The notes beneath the pieces were generated by a model, which made no database searches, was not told the origin of the DNA, and worked only from the letters and a program-made list of their open reading frames with translations. Made by a program: the position numbers and the translations under genes. Below, piece by piece: positions 55,668-64,000 of a stretch of DNA of 64,000 nucleotides; positions within the stretch are counted from its first letter, which is position 1; each line of letters starts with the position of its first letter. Source of the stretch: Candidatus Manganitrophus sp. (GTDB lineage Bacteria > Nitrospirota > Nitrospiria > SBBL01 > Manganitrophaceae); NCBI GenBank assembly GCA_028865235.1, contig CP114561.1, positions 1,260,001-1,324,000 of the forward strand, written 5' to 3'.

Positions 55668-56741
55668 TTAAAACCCAAGACTCAGTTGAGCAACATAACG
55701 CCGATCAGCGCGCTGACCCGAGACGGCCCCGAGCTCTTCCGCATAGGTGGCGGCCGAAATGGATAGAATCCAGAAATCGACATCGACACCGGCCGCCGGA
55801 TAACCGCCGTTAATTCCGGCCCGAAGGGTCAAAATCATTGGGAAGCGGAACTCGGCTCCAAGATGGAGCCGTTTGTAAAGGTCGTCATCTGTTTCGATGC
55901 TCTTAGTGAGATCATCGATCTCAACGGCAAAGGTCGTCTTTAAAATCCAGAAATCGGGATTGATCGAAGCGCCGATGTTCACTGTTTGGGGAATTTCGCC
56001 AAGCTCTTCGAAGTCGAGATCGGTGATGTTCGAAACGACGAGCGCGACGCTCGGCTTGAGGAAATTTTTGAAATTGACCTTCGTGCCGATATCGAGAGCG
56101 AAGTCTGACTTTTTCCCAGCTTCTTCGGCATCGTCAATTGGGTCGAAAGTATCGTTCACAATATCGACGGCCGAATAAGTTTTATTCACTCCCTCCCGCC
56201 GAATAAATTTCCCCGTCACACCGACCTGTAACTTCTGATCAAAAAATCCGAACGCTCCGGAAGCCATGATCCCGGTGTCGATCCGAACATTTGTAGGGAT
56301 CGTGGGATTCGCCCCGCTATCCCGAATCTCCATGTCGACCGTCGCCTGTCCCAGGGCTGCGATGGCAAAGTTGTGCATGTAAAAATTCGGTAGGAGCGCC
56401 GCGCGGACATGCTGATGTTCCCCAATCCGCTCATTCAAAAAGTCAACGACTTCCTGCTGATCCTCCGTATCCAAGTCATTTAAATCCTGGTAGAAGCCCA
56501 TCGTGTTCTTTGAGACCTCCACCAGCGGATTTATTAGACCGACCCCGAATCCACTCACATCATTCAGACCGGCCGGGTTATAAAACATCGCGTTCTCATC
56601 GTCAGAGAGGGTGATGAAAGCCCCTCCCATCCCAAGCGGCCGAATTCCCCGATAGAGATTCGGCAACTCCTCGGCAGCGGCCACCCCCATTCCCAAAAAT
56701 CCTCCGATCAAAACCCCGAAGATAATTCCTTTTTTTACCAT
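55668..56741 (-). CDS. PorV/FadL-like outer-membrane beta-barrel protein
   Basis: The protein has 357 residues, with a signal peptide (MVKKGIIFGVLIGGFLGMG, cleaved near VAAAEE). The mature start LYRGIRPLGMGGAFITLSDD followed by NAMFYNPAGL is the diagnostic N-terminus of PorV/OMPP1-type barrels, and the C-terminus ends in aromatic VAQLSLGF, as in barrel proteins. I start at 56741 (GGGAG upstream); the ATG at 56771 overlaps the previous stop as TAATG. Probable operon with the secreted protein upstream. The cargo or role is unknown. Confidence 0.75.
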   Translation of the reverse strand: MVKKGIIFGVLIGGFLGMGVAAAEELPNLYRGIRPLGMGGAFITLSDDENAMFYNPAGLNDVSGFGVGLINPLVEVSKNTMGFYQDLNDLDTEDQQEVVDFLNERIGEHQHVRAALLPNFYMHNFAIAALGQATVDMEIRDSGANPTIPTNVRIDTGIMASGAFGFFDQKLQVGVTGKFIRREGVNKTYSAVDIVNDTFDPIDDAEEAGKKSDFALDIGTKVNFKNFLKPSVALVVSNITDLDFEELGEIPQTVNIGASINPDFWILKTTFAVEIDDLTKSIETDDDLYKRLHLGAEFRFPMILTLRAGINGGYPAAGVDVDFWILSISAATYAEELGAVSGQRADRRYVAQLSLGF

Positions 56742-56770
56742 CGCGCTTTCTCCCAAAGGTTTCCGAGTCA

Positions 56771-57535
56771 TTAAAAGTTCAGAAGATCCAGGACCGTCGT
56801 TGAATTAACATTAGACAATCTCTCCTGAATCTGCTCAATATGGTCGGTGATGTCATTTTCGGTTTGGTTAACAACAGCCTCGCCTAATCCCAAACCCATA
56901 TTGTTCACGTCTCGGGAAACCCGGTTGATCAGGGTCAGTCCCTGAATCGGGGTCAAGTCGTCGAGATCCTGCGTGGTCGGCATTTGGTTTGGTCTTCCAT
57001 CTGAATCATACCCGTCGGTCTTCGTTCCGAGCAGGACAACAATATCGACAACGGTTGCCACGGCGAGTTGAAGCCCCTGGGCTGGCGTTCGGACCGGAAG
57101 GGAACTCAACAAAATGACGGCATTATTCATATCGCTGAGCTGACTGCTTGTGGGAGCCGAAAAGTGAGCCGAGAAAAGGGCATAGCTCTCATTATTAGAG
57201 GGGGTTTTATCGACCGCTTCTTTAACAAGGTCGAAAACAGCAAGCCCGGCGCGCCCGGCATATGCGGATGCATAGAGGCTGACCACTTCAGGATCGCAAC
57301 TCGGTGCGGTCAGATCGGTCCCGCAAAGATCCGCAAGGATCTCGACCGCATCAGCAAACTCTCCATCGTCAAGCGCGATCTTTGCTTTTTCAAGCTTGGC
57401 TTCATCGGTACTGTCATCGGCCATGCTTTCGAAAACGCTCTTTCCCCCGCAGCCCTGTCCCTCCGCGCCGCCGAGAAACAAACCGGTGCTGAGAAGAAAC
57501 CCGATCCAGACAACCGTCCTTAAATTAAACCGCAT
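56771..57535 (-). CDS. Secreted hypothetical protein, helical
   Basis: This 254-residue protein has a signal peptide with FLGGAEGQGC near residue 30, possibly a lipobox-like site. The remainder is mostly helical, with TPR-like early part (AKIALDDGEFADAVEILADL) and long Asp/Asn-rich helices later. I start at 57535 behind GAGGAGAGG. It is adjacent to and upstream of the PorV-like gene, with TAATG spacing, so the two may form an outer-membrane pair. No domain is recognised. Confidence 0.6.
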   Translation of the reverse strand: MRFNLRTVVWIGFLLSTGLFLGGAEGQGCGGKSVFESMADDSTDEAKLEKAKIALDDGEFADAVEILADLCGTDLTAPSCDPEVVSLYASAYAGRAGLAVFDLVKEAVDKTPSNNESYALFSAHFSAPTSSQLSDMNNAVILLSSLPVRTPAQGLQLAVATVVDIVVLLGTKTDGYDSDGRPNQMPTTQDLDDLTPIQGLTLINRVSRDVNNMGLGLGEAVVNQTENDITDHIEQIQERLSNVNSTTVLDLLNF

Positions 57536-57707
57536 GGTCCTCTCCTCTTTAATCATTCCTTATTTGGATATATTTTTAAGGGATTACAAATGACAGAGTG
57601 GTCCGAAACACGTTTACAAAGGTAACAGGAAATCGAGGTTTGTCAAGGAAAGGAGGAATACCGGTTGGGCCTGAAACCGGCATAATGTTATCTACTATAT
57701 AGAGAGG

Positions 57708-58505
57708 TCAGGAGCGGATCGCGGCTTTTAATGAGGAGACGAGTCCCGAGAGCCGGGAGAGATACGCGGGGTCGTTCTGGGAGGTTTCGATGATTTTGAC
57801 CAGGGCGCTGCCGACGATGATCCCATCGGCCGCTTGTCCCATTTCTTTCGCCTCTTCCGGCGTCGAGATGCCGAAGCCGACGGCGACCGGGCGGTCGGTC
57901 ATCGACTTCAACTTCTGAATCCGTGTTCGGATCGATTCCTTCTCGGTGAGAGCGGCGCCGGTGATTCCGGTGAGGGAGACATAATAAACAAACCCGCCGC
58001 TGTCTTTGACGATCCGCTCCGCCCGCTCGGGAGGCGTAGTCGGCGCCACCAGGAAAATCAAATCGATCAGGTGGCGCTTCGCGAGAGACAAGAATTCCTT
58101 CGCCTCTTCATGAGGAAGGTCGGGAACGATCAAACCGTCCACCCCGGCTCCTTTCGCCTCTTTGAAGAAAGCGCCGAGGCCGAAAGCATACATCGGATTG
58201 GAATAGGTCATCAAAATCAGCGGGATTTTCGTCTGCCGGCGAAGCAGGGTGACCAGATCCAAAACGCCGCGCAGCGTCACCCCCTGCCGCAGCGCCCGCT
58301 CCGATGCTTTCTGGATGGTGGGGCCGTCGGCAACCGGGTCGGAAAAGGGGACCCCCAATTCAATCAGGTCGGCTCCCGCTTTTTCCATCTCCAAAACGAT
58401 TTGCGCCGTTTCGGAAAGGGTCGGATCGCCGGCCATCACGTAGGCGATCAGCGCCTTCTCGCCCCGCGCCGTTATATTTTTAATCGTAGACTCGATCCGG
58501 CTCAT
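57708..58505 (-). CDS. trpA: Tryptophan synthase alpha subunit
   Basis: TrpA cleaves indole-3-glycerol phosphate to indole, which passes to TrpB. The TIM barrel of 265 residues is complete: ALIAYVMAGDPTL, ELGVPFSDPVADGPTIQKA (catalytic Glu and Asp), GLIVPDLPHEE and PVAVGFGISTPEEAK. I start at the ATG at 58505; it overlaps the HD-GYP gene by 26 bases, so it is translated after it. It is the last gene of the trp operon in the window and is intact. Confidence 0.94.
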   Translation of the reverse strand: MSRIESTIKNITARGEKALIAYVMAGDPTLSETAQIVLEMEKAGADLIELGVPFSDPVADGPTIQKASERALRQGVTLRGVLDLVTLLRRQTKIPLILMTYSNPMYAFGLGAFFKEAKGAGVDGLIVPDLPHEEAKEFLSLAKRHLIDLIFLVAPTTPPERAERIVKDSGGFVYYVSLTGITGAALTEKESIRTRIQKLKSMTDRPVAVGFGISTPEEAKEMGQAADGIIVGSALVKIIETSQNDPAYLSRLSGLVSSLKAAIRS

Positions 58506-59760
58506 CGGGGGCTCTTTTCTTCTGAAGGGGGGTGGAAGGGCCGGCGGCCGGCGGCCGATTTCGATGGAGGATCGGCTCGATCTCTCCGTTCTCGAAGGCC
58601 GCGATAAAGGTATCAACGACCTTCGGATCGAATTGCGTTCCGGCATGTCGCCGCAGCTCTTGGAGGGCAATCTCCGAATGAAGCCCTTTTCGGTAGGGAC
58701 GGTCGGAGGTGATCGCGTCGAATGTGTCGCTGACCGAGATAATGCGGGCCATGATCGGAATCCCCCCTCCCTTCAACGCATCGGGGTACCCTTTTCCATC
58801 ATACTTCTCATGATGGTGGCGGATGCCGGGGACAATCGCGCGGAGCGGCCGGATATTTTCGACGATCTTGGCCCCGATCACGGTGTGATTCTCCATAATC
58901 TGGGCCTCCTCCGGCTCAAGACGGCTCGGTTTTCCGAGAATCCGATCTTCAATCCCGATCTTCCCGATGTCATGAAGCGCCGCCGCGAGCTTTAACTGAT
59001 CCAATTCTTCCGGGGAAAGGCCCATCCGTTTTCCGACGACCATGCTATATTCCAATACCCGCTTCGTGTGGCCGCCGGTGTAGGCGTCTTTCGCCTCGAT
59101 GGCGTCCCCGAGCGCCGCGGCCGTGCTCAAAAAGGTTTCTTTCAATTCTTTGTACAAACCGGCATTTTCGATGGCGATGGCGACCTGGTCGGCCAACGAT
59201 TTGAATCCCTCCAGATCGATCTCGGTAAATTTTCCCCGCTTTTTGTTGATCGCTTGGAGGACGCCGACAATCCTCTCGCGAATCTTCACCGGAACGCAGA
59301 TCATGTTGCGGGTCACGAAACCGCTCTTCTCATCCGCGCTCTTGAAAAAACGAGGGTTCGCCCGGGTATCGTTCACAATTTGCGGCTCCCCCGTTTGCGC
59401 GACCCAGCCGGCGATCCCCTCCCCCGGACGAAGGCGGATCTCACGGACCTTTTCCCCCTTCTCTCCAAGGGCCACTTCGAAAAAAAGCTCCTGCGTTTCG
59501 GGGTCGATCAACAATAAAGATCCGACCTCCGACCGCATCAAGCGGGTCGCCGATTCCATGGCGCGCCTGCGAACCTCCCGCTCGTCGAGTGTGGAGTTCA
59601 GAAGCCGGCCGATCTCCTCCATTGTCTCCAGGATCTCGAGCCGCGCTTTCTGGGCGGCGATCTTATTTTTTAAGCCGATCTCTGCGCGCACCTGAACCGC
59701 GGGCTTTTTGCGCTTTTTCCCTCCGCCCTCCTTCACTCTCTTTTTCGTCGTTGCAGGCAT
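58480..59760 (-). CDS. GAF-HD-GYP phosphodiesterase in the trp operon
   Basis: The protein has 426 residues: a basic N-terminus (about 1-30), a GAF domain (about 45-203) and an HD-GYP domain (about 207-390). Catalytic residues are present: HDIGK at 263-267 and HHHEKYDGKGYP at 315-326 (with the GYP triad). It probably hydrolyses cyclic di-GMP in response to a GAF ligand. It lies between trpB (14 bases after it) and trpA (26-base overlap), so it is expressed with tryptophan synthesis. The reason for this coupling is unknown. Confidence 0.88.
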   Translation of the reverse strand: MPATTKKRVKEGGGKKRKKPAVQVRAEIGLKNKIAAQKARLEILETMEEIGRLLNSTLDEREVRRRAMESATRLMRSEVGSLLLIDPETQELFFEVALGEKGEKVREIRLRPGEGIAGWVAQTGEPQIVNDTRANPRFFKSADEKSGFVTRNMICVPVKIRERIVGVLQAINKKRGKFTEIDLEGFKSLADQVAIAIENAGLYKELKETFLSTAAALGDAIEAKDAYTGGHTKRVLEYSMVVGKRMGLSPEELDQLKLAAALHDIGKIGIEDRILGKPSRLEPEEAQIMENHTVIGAKIVENIRPLRAIVPGIRHHHEKYDGKGYPDALKGGGIPIMARIISVSDTFDAITSDRPYRKGLHSEIALQELRRHAGTQFDPKVVDTFIAAFENGEIEPILHRNRPPAAGPSTPLQKKRAPDEPDRVYD

Positions 59761-59774
59761 GATCCCTCCCCGCT

Positions 59775-60972
<1,198 letters not shown>

Positions 60973-60989
<17 letters not shown>

Positions 60990-61635
60990 ACTTCTCCCCC
61001 GCCCGCTTCGCCGCTTCGATAAATCGTTTCATCTTCACGTGATCTTTCTTTCTCCGACCCCCGACCCCCGACCCCCGGCCCCCTGTCTCGATCTCCACCC
61101 CGCTGCTCACATCAACGCCGTAAGGACGGACCGCCGCAATGGCCGCTTCGACATTCTCCGGCGTCAGCCCCCCTGCAAGGAGGATCCGACAGAGCCGCGT
61201 TGCCTTCGCCGCAATCTTCCAATCAAATGAAACGCCGCTTCCGCCGAGATGCTGATCGTGGTACGTGTCGAGCAGAACGGCGCGTGCGGGATGGGACGAT
61301 ATTTCATCGAGATCCTCCTCATCCCGGACGCGGATCACCTTGATCGCCCGCGATGCAAACGGCCGGATCGTTTCAGGTGAAAAAGGACCATGAAATTGAA
61401 TCAGGTCGAGTCCGCACTCTTCAACCGCCTGCCTGAAATCCTTTTCCTCTCCAGAGGTGAAAACGCCGACGGTGGTTACGAAGGCGGGCAGGGAGGAGAT
61501 AATTTTTCGGACCGTCTCCGGCGGGGTGAATCGCGGACTCTCCGGGGCGAAGATGAATCCGATCGCATCGGCCCCATACTCCGCCGCCATCATCGCATCT
61601 TCCAGATTGGTGATCCCGCAGATCTTGACGCGCAT
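60973..61635 (-). CDS. trpF: Phosphoribosylanthranilate isomerase
   Basis: TrpF isomerises phosphoribosylanthranilate. The barrel of about 220 residues has the catalytic Cys in [13 protein letters not shown] and the Asp in [21 protein letters not shown]. Near the C-terminus an in-frame low-complexity insert ([15 protein letters not shown]) lies between VDVSSGVE and [15 protein letters not shown]; it comes from a GGGGGTC-repeat tract at about 61054-61086. The insert follows the last beta strand and may be tolerated. The gene overlaps trpB by 17 bases. Confidence 0.88.
61054..61086. repeat. GACCCCC tandem tract inside trpF
   Basis: On the plus strand three copies of GACCCCC (or CGACCCC) are followed by GGCCCCCTG. 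The tract is within coding sequence, in frame, and adds about 12 residues. Similar CCCCTGACCCC units occur at 20540-20570. Confidence 0.7.
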
Positions 61636-61735: not shown

Positions 61736-62530
61736 TCATCTTCCCAACAATTCCTTCATTTTGTCCGCCATCTTCTCAGCTACCATGAAGGTCTCGCCGA
61801 TCAGCATCGCCTCGACCCCGGCATCGTAGAGCCGCTCGACTTCCTTTCGAGAATGAATCCCGCTTTCGCTGATTACGACCCGGTCCTTCCGTAAGATAGA
61901 TGGAATTTCGCGGAGAAGGCGGAAGGTCGTTTCCAGATCAGTCTTGAAGGTGCGCAGATCCCGATTGTTGATCCCGATGACCGGCGCCCAATCGACCACC
62001 TGCTCCAGTTCCTTCTCGTCATGAACTTCCACAAGAATATCGAGCGAGAGCTCCCGCGCCAGATGGAAATAGTCTATCGCCTGTTGGCGTTCCAACAAGG
62101 CGGCGATCAGGAGGAGCGCGTCGGCTCCCCAGGCGCGCGCTTCGTACACTTGAAACTCATCGAGGATAAAATCTTTTTTCAGCAAGGGAAGCGCGATCGC
62201 TGACCGCACTTCCTTTAGATAAGAAGGCTTGCCGAGGAAAAAGTGCTCTTCCGTGAGAACGGAGACCGCTGCTGCCCCTTCTCCCTCGTAGATCCGGGCA
62301 ATCTCAACCGGCTGGAACTTTTCCCGAATGATCCCTTTCGAAGGAGAGGCCTTCTTGATCTCGGCGATCAGCCGGGGAGCCCCCTCTTGGCGTTCTCGAA
62401 GCGCCTTCTGAAATCGACGGGTCGGCTCCGCATCGGCAATCCGCGACCGGAGCTCTTGAAGCGCGCTCCGCCCCTTCCGGCGTTGAACCGACTCGCGTTT
62501 GACTTTAAGAATGTCGTCTAGGAAAGTCAT
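61736..62530 (-). CDS. trpC: Indole-3-glycerol phosphate synthase
   Basis: TrpC closes the indole ring from CdRP. The barrel of 264 residues has LIAEIKKASPSKG (catalytic Lys), FQVYEARAWGADALLLIAALL, DILVEVHDEKELE, IGINNRDLRTF and VVISESGIHSRKEVERL. I start at 62530 (MTFLDDILKVKRESV), the usual N-terminus of the family. The gene is intact, so the sequence quality here is good. It follows trpD by about 44 bases. Confidence 0.94.
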   Translation of the reverse strand: MTFLDDILKVKRESVQRRKGRSALQELRSRIADAEPTRRFQKALRERQEGAPRLIAEIKKASPSKGIIREKFQPVEIARIYEGEGAAAVSVLTEEHFFLGKPSYLKEVRSAIALPLLKKDFILDEFQVYEARAWGADALLLIAALLERQQAIDYFHLARELSLDILVEVHDEKELEQVVDWAPVIGINNRDLRTFKTDLETTFRLLREIPSILRKDRVVISESGIHSRKEVERLYDAGVEAMLIGETFMVAEKMADKMKELLGR

Positions 62531-62574
62531 AGAATAAGTGAGGAGTGAAGTGTAAGGAGTCAACGACTTACTCC

Positions 62575-63602
62575 TTACTTATTGGTCATCTCCTTCAAAG
62601 CTTCCAGCTTGCCCATCGCCCTTCCGGAGTCGATCGATTCCTCCGCCAGATGGACCCCCTCCTGGAGGGTCTTTGCCTTTCCGACGGCGACGAGCGCCGG
62701 GGCGGCATTCATCAAAACCACATCCCGCTTCGGTCCCTGTTCACCTTTCAGGATATCGAGGAGAATCGCCGCATTGACGTCGGCGTTGCCTCCGGCCAAA
62801 TCTTTGAGACTTCCACCCGGAAGTTGAAAGTCTTTCGGCTCCAGCGGATAGGTTAGAACGCGGCCCCCTTTTCCCTCGGAGATCCGGCTCTTGCCGGTGA
62901 TGGTGATCTCATCGAGGCCGTCGGCGCCGTGGACGACGAAACAGTGGCGCGAGCCGAGATTGAGGAGCACCTGCGCCATCAGCTCGGTGTAGATGGAGGA
63001 GAAAACCCCAAGGACCTGGACGGTCGCCCCGGCCGGATTGGTCAGCGGTCCCAGCAGGTTGAACAGGGTGCGGATGCCGGTCTCCCGGCGCGGACCGACG
63101 GCATGGCGCATGGCGCCGTGGTGTGCGGGGCGAAAAGAAAGCCGATGCCGAGCTCATCGATGCAGCGCGCGCCCCGCTCGGGGGTAAGATCGAGGCGCAC
63201 TCCCGGCGGCTTCCAGCACATCGGCGCTGCCGCTGGTGCTGGACACCGACGGTTGCCGTGCTTGGCCACGCTGACCCCGCAGCCGGCCACCACGAAGGCG
63301 CCCGTCGTCGAGACGTTGAACAGGGTGGCGCCGATCGCCGCCGGTGCCGCAGATGTCGACCACGATCGGATCGGTGACACCGGACGCGAACCGCAGTCTC
63401 GCGCATCACCTCCGCCGCGCCGGTGATCTCGTCGACCGTCTCGCCCTTCATGCGCAGGGCGACGAGGAAGCCGGCGATCTGCGCCGGCGTCGCCTCGCCC
63501 TCATCAGCTCCTGCATGGCCTGCTCCGCATCTTCGGCTCGCTCGAGGCTGCCACCCTTTCGACCACTTTGGCAAGCGCTTCTTGATCAGGCGTCGCCCTT
63601 AT
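62575..63602 (-). CDS. trpD: Anthranilate phosphoribosyltransferase, 5' half frame-disrupted
   Basis: TrpD transfers phosphoribose to anthranilate. The C-terminal half (62575 to about 63110) reads cleanly in one frame, [27 protein letters not shown] to the end. The N-terminal half is broken by many indels: [34 protein letters not shown] is in one frame, the [10 protein letters not shown] core in another and the ATLFNVST piece in a third. No ATG is visible near the expected start (about 63602), so the 5' limit is approximate. The disrupted half is very GC-rich. Confidence 0.75.
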
Positions 63603-63606
63603 CCTC

Positions 63607-64000
<394 letters not shown>

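Follow-up and report, generated by a model that had tools for sequence, protein, structure and literature searches.

The gene located between trpB and trpA in this stretch of Candidatus Manganitrophus DNA probably encodes an HD-GYP-type phosphodiesterase for c-di-GMP, as judged from its sequence. It is proposed, with somewhat better than even confidence, that the product is a soluble enzyme acting on c-di-GMP or a related cyclic dinucleotide, that its GAF domain would be switched by cAMP or cGMP and that its gene would be co-transcribed with the trp genes. A response to a cyclic nucleotide appears more likely than a response to tryptophan, because in the relatives the gene is an old neighbour of the trp genes, usually placed after trpA, and occurs alongside genes of cyclic-nucleotide signalling. 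A position between trpB and trpA does not by itself make a gene a sensor of that pathway, and here the relatives point to other partners.

The gene, its junctions and its conservation within the genus

The window, being the whole stretch of 64,000 nucleotides that was analysed, belongs to a genome assembly of 4.55 Mb in three contigs (86.7% complete). All its features described here are on the minus strand. An ATG-started open frame of 426 residues (P0001, positions 58480-59760) is found between trpB (59775-60989) and trpA (57708-58505; PF00290, 6e-93), and it encodes a GAF domain (residues 58-198, 59167-59589) followed by an HD-GYP catalytic domain (residues 218-381, 58618-59109). The open frame, the Pfam matches, the motifs and the sibling genomes all confirm the sequence-only reading, which had placed a phosphodiesterase-type gene with intact catalytic motifs at this junction. 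There are ten HD_5 matches in the source genome, and the protein is therefore one among several such proteins. Upstream of trpB, trpF (60973-61635) and trpC (61736-62563) are recognized by Pfam, and the 3' part of trpD is at 62575-63111.

Two stretches of the window are frameshifted and have a high GC content (0.65-0.72, as compared with about 0.57), at 59930-60880 and at 62880-64000. The first breaks trpB and the second includes the 5' part of trpD and trpG. In the siblings, the trp genes are intact and have normal GC at these places, and the stretch in trpB has only a 62% match when compared with sibling TrpB. Most likely, these stretches are due to a chimeric consensus or to mis-polishing with the reads of another organism.

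When surveying the trpB-trpA junctions of the genus (Nitrospirota; the nearest named record is Candidatus Manganitrophaceae), it is found that the placement of the gene is conserved, the order trpB-HD-GYP-trpA being present in 6/6 genomes. Since, in addition, the HD-GYP proteins of the genus are 81-97% identical to the window protein (90% for Candidatus Manganitrophaceae GW715_bin.13), a chance placement is excluded. In one genome (G001), the HD-GYP frame is interrupted. The genus cluster has trpE-G-D-C-F upstream, where the contig reaches that far, and downstream a lipoprotein-like gene (orf261 in the window, 56771-57556) and then the gene of a TraF_2-like, outer-membrane-protein-like protein (55668-56771; weak Pfam match, below the cut-off). 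These two genes (55668-57556) follow trpA here, and their relatives in the sister family f10 follow the HD-GYP gene.

The trpB stop and the HD-GYP start are separated by 14 nt in the window copy, and this gap contains the ribosome-binding-like sequence GGGGAGGG (59764-59771). Across the genus this distance is 14-18 nt, and the HD-GYP/trpA junction is ATGA (about 4 bases), or TGATGA in one genome (G004). The overlap of 26 bases with trpA claimed by the earlier reading is indeed present in the window (58480-58505), but it is peculiar to this copy. It arises because a base is missing from the variable C-terminal tail of the HD-GYP gene (58505-58560) in the window when compared with the aligned siblings, which shifts the HD-GYP end by some residues; either a true deletion or a mistake in the assembly may account for this. 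As a general coupling device, the 26-base overlap is therefore rejected.

The junctions of 14-18 nt and ATGA, together with a trpB lacking any coding-strand promoter-like site in the sibling locus where this was checked (L052), suggest that the HD-GYP gene is co-transcribed with the trp genes. One sibling has a promoter-like site between trpC and trpF, which is discounted, as it is not conserved in the genus. A TTGACT...TAGCCT-like sequence, read by eye and not from a promoter scan, is located shortly 5' of trpE in 5/5 genomes that reach that far, and no Rfam leader RNA (T-box, trp leader and others) is matched at the gathering thresholds in five loci covering the cluster. Transcription would start at the trpE promoter and proceed through trpB into the HD-GYP gene, and translation would be coupled to that of trpA.

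The catalytic domain and the GAF domain

The HD-GYP domain is matched by Pfam HD_5/HD (residues 218-381, 4.5e-37, above the curated cut-offs), and its HD pair and HHExxDGxGYP(x7)I motif are intact, as shown by H263, D264, H316-H317-E318, G324-Y325-P326 and I334. When compared with PmGH, seven of the eight metal ligands are kept, E185 being replaced by Tyr227, as in the Y/F subfamily; D183, K225 and D308 of PmGH are also kept. For proteins without an E185-type ligand, like Tyr227 here, the authors of the PmGH study predict a binuclear centre (PMC4159591). The HD-GYP relative V-cGAP3 (PDB 5z7c) shows that such proteins can prefer 3'3'-cGAMP.

The GAF domain is matched by Pfam GAF_2/GAF (residues 58-198, 6e-23, above the curated cut-offs). 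When the GAF domain is considered alone, the closest solved structure is that of Lcd1 with cAMP (PDB 5w10, E 1e-28, 35% identical), followed by CyaB2, PDE5, PDE10 and PDE2. This is in agreement with the predicted structure (mean pLDDT 78, pTM 0.57), whose best GAF-only match is again Lcd1 with cAMP (Foldseek TM 0.82 by target). The NKFDE motif is described as a mark of cyclic-nucleotide-binding GAF domains and as a requirement for binding (PMC11977230). Of 75 orthologs, 74-75 have N172, K/R173, F178 and D/E182 of this motif; the window protein has N172, K173, F178 and D182, and the final glutamate is Leu183. The loop D143...F148.T150 is likewise kept in the orthologs and is missing from most of 17 paralogs. 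Four CyaB2 residues that are reported to interact with cAMP (PMC4411481), T293, I308, T309 and D356, align with S81, V96, A97 and D143, and Arg291 of CyaB2 corresponds to Val79. By sequence and by fold, the GAF domain is therefore closest to the cAMP/cGMP-binding type, although Leu183 and Val79 count against such a ligand.

Orthologs, linkage to trpA and neighbouring genes

Orthologs were selected by similarity to the window protein (E<=1e-95) in 296 Nitrospirota genomes and are found in 74 of these, corresponding to 44/135 genera. In 43 of the 74 genomes, spanning 28 genera, the ortholog adjoins trpA on the same strand, being directly downstream in 41 and upstream in two, both of this genus; the position between trpB and trpA is seen only in the family of the window. 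The typical order across the phylum is trpB-trpA-HD-GYP-[CRP-like]-[metallo-beta-lactamase fold]-accD-folC. The sister family f10 has trpB-trpA-HD-GYP and then, in most cases, genes related to the two that lie downstream of trpA in the genus of the window. Orthologs are also found in 7/79 Methylomirabilota genomes, where trpA-HD-GYP followed by a gene of the metallo-beta-lactamase fold is seen as well. In a quick maximum-likelihood tree, 71 orthologs form one group (SH-aLRT 99), which includes the window protein and leaves out the HD-GYP paralogs that rank next in related genomes; within it, the genus groups beside f10 (99).

The window gene is thus a member of the ortholog clade having a variant order, as it is not downstream of trpA. 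The 41/43 downstream placements and the restriction of the other order to one family indicate a local swap, and the simplest history that the sequences suggest is an old trpA-HD-GYP linkage with one local exchange of order. Perhaps this exchange proceeded via a duplication of trpA-HD-GYP with loss of the outer copies, for which a tandem duplication would be plausible. What had been described as an insertion at the trpB-trpA junction is better seen as such an exchange within an old trpB-trpA-HD-GYP cluster. As to relatives that lack the gene, the genus has it and many others have it after trpA, but in family f5 of the same taxonomic order there is no ortholog-strength match, and trpB is directly followed by trpA. 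Family f6 has one genome in which trpB-trpA is directly followed by the gene of a longer HD-GYP-like protein (an 859-residue frame, locus L089, G041:C15:87749-90460); the other f6 genomes have no ortholog-strength match.

The gene of the metallo-beta-lactamase fold matches PF02112 (class-II cAMP phosphodiesterases) and PF12706, and H53, H55, D57, H58, H139, D160 and H223 are invariant in its product. Such a phosphodiesterase-like gene lies within 5 kb of the ortholog, on the same strand, in 52/74 genomes, and it is a commoner neighbour than trpA (52 versus 43, both raw counts in which shared ancestry is ignored). Where trpA is not adjacent (31/74), 20 genomes keep the link to this gene. Also at the level of presence the two genes go together, the phosphodiesterase-like gene being found in 67/74 genomes with the HD-GYP ortholog versus 78/222 without (Fisher 6.6e-18, shared ancestry ignored). 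Of 38 genomes tested, 7 have a nucleotide-cyclase gene no more than 6 kb from the HD-GYP gene, as compared with 0.47 expected for random placement (ancestry ignored); in the neighbouring loci that were scanned these are CHASE2-cyclases, and in three genomes the cyclase is also at most about 300 bases away from the phosphodiesterase-like gene. CRP-type cyclic-nucleotide-binding genes are also found near the orthologs.

In the genus of the window, the phosphodiesterase-like gene shows no linkage to the HD-GYP gene and is located beside a TPR/cNMP-binding gene (G000:C1:2569669-2570445 in the source genome), and class-III cyclases are present in every genome, one or more in each. In family f10, a pair of a phosphodiesterase-like and a TPR/cNMP-binding gene is followed by accD-folC. 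In two loci of the Thermodesulfovibrio-like family f29 (L156 and L157), two tandem HD-GYP genes lie behind a T2SSE/MshEN ATPase gene and are followed by a phosphodiesterase-like gene, with a CHASE2-cyclase in L157; a link of this tandem locus to type IV pili is possible.

Interpretation and comparison with known systems

In the preferred reading, a cyclic mononucleotide (cAMP or cGMP) would bind to the GAF domain, and this signal, relayed along the linker, a long helix (residues 180-224), would alter the hydrolysis of c-di-GMP or a related cyclic dinucleotide, in a direction that is likewise conjectural. The chief contribution of the trp genes would be to keep expression steady, and the cyclic-nucleotide genes would be the partners in function. 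A simpler account, which we consider somewhat unlikely, is that of an active HD-GYP phosphodiesterase having another GAF ligand, or none, that stays in place only as a member of a rarely broken cluster, such that its position has no regulatory meaning. This would fit with the presence of accD-folC, unrelated to tryptophan, in the same cluster and with the many genomes in which the trp link or the gene itself is lost, and a GAF ligand is difficult to predict from sequence. However, the pocket loop and the N-K-F-D residues hardly vary within the clade, unlike in the paralogs, and the cyclic-nucleotide genes recur as neighbours.

It is improbable that the GAF domain senses a metabolite of the tryptophan pathway, as the sequence-only reading had proposed, with c-di-GMP breakdown following tryptophan synthesis and the gene staying in the trp operon for this reason. 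The adjacency to trpA over 28 genera, extending to the Methylomirabilota, and the tight junctions in the genus agree with this proposal, but the GAF domain is nearest to the cAMP/cGMP-binding type, 31/74 genomes retain the ortholog away from the trp genes (20 of them still linked to the phosphodiesterase-like gene, the commonest neighbour), CRP-like and CHASE2-cyclase genes are nearby, and the words tryptophan and indole are absent from a review on the stimuli of c-di-GMP enzymes. The tie to tryptophan is positional, and a regulatory meaning of it is possible but unsupported. Despite the foreign-looking high-GC stretches in trpB, trpD and trpG, an assembly artefact or a recent foreign insertion, with the gene not being native to this place, is rejected with near certainty, as five further genomes of the genus agree on the gene order with an intact trpB (four checked by frame, one by alignment) and the orthologs of the sister families adjoin trpA and form one clade.

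Returning to the reading of a cyclic-nucleotide-switched phosphodiesterase, a wider extension of it can be offered only tentatively and is rather doubtful: a cross-talk module of the Nitrospirota and Methylomirabilota, in which a CHASE2 cyclase, a CRP-like or TPR/cNMP-binding protein, a class-II phosphodiesterase and a gated GAF-HD-GYP protein would be set in a trp-accD-folC cluster, such that the removal of c-di-GMP would follow the cAMP/cGMP level and the anabolic capacity. If the preferred reading is true, this is a clade-wide conserved case, in poorly studied phyla, in which the breakdown of c-di-GMP is under the control of another second messenger, cAMP or cGMP, and a gene that seems out of place among biosynthetic genes leads to a directly testable ligand prediction. 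The kind of protein is already known, including a cAMP-responsive GAF-HD-GYP protein. In the open-licence literature, no report was found of an HD-GYP gene in a trp operon, which does not prove absence, nor of a trp linkage across the clade, of cyclase, CRP-like and phosphodiesterase-like genes as neighbours of the HD-GYP gene or of the swapped order.

Two GAF-HD-GYP proteins, PmGH and Tlr0485, can be compared with the window protein. We know of no ligand of the PmGH GAF domain, which has the same features as the window GAF domain, and of no trp linkage of Tlr0485. PmGH of Persephonella marina (PDB 4MCW), an active c-di-GMP phosphodiesterase, is the best solved match to the window protein, sharing with it the two-domain architecture and all catalytic motifs and differing in having a glutamate, E185, at the position of Tyr227 (PMC4159591). 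No trp linkage of PmGH is known to us. Tlr0485 of Thermosynechococcus vulcanus is responsive to cAMP (PMC8846402); it is cyanobacterial, and the likeness, drawn from its description, concerns the way of working, a GAF domain being linked to an HD-GYP domain in both. Lcd1 of Leptospira (PDB 5W10) has a cAMP-binding GAF domain with the same pocket loop as the window GAF domain, but its output is a GGDEF diguanylate cyclase, which makes c-di-GMP, whereas an HD-GYP output destroys it (PMC8846402). The closest likeness in gene arrangement is provided by the trpB-trpA-HD-GYP clusters of other Nitrospirota and of Methylomirabilota, in which an orthologous HD-GYP gene of the same clade lies beside trpA; in the window the HD-GYP gene instead precedes trpA, and the phosphodiesterase-like gene is elsewhere in the genome, next to the TPR/cNMP-binding gene.
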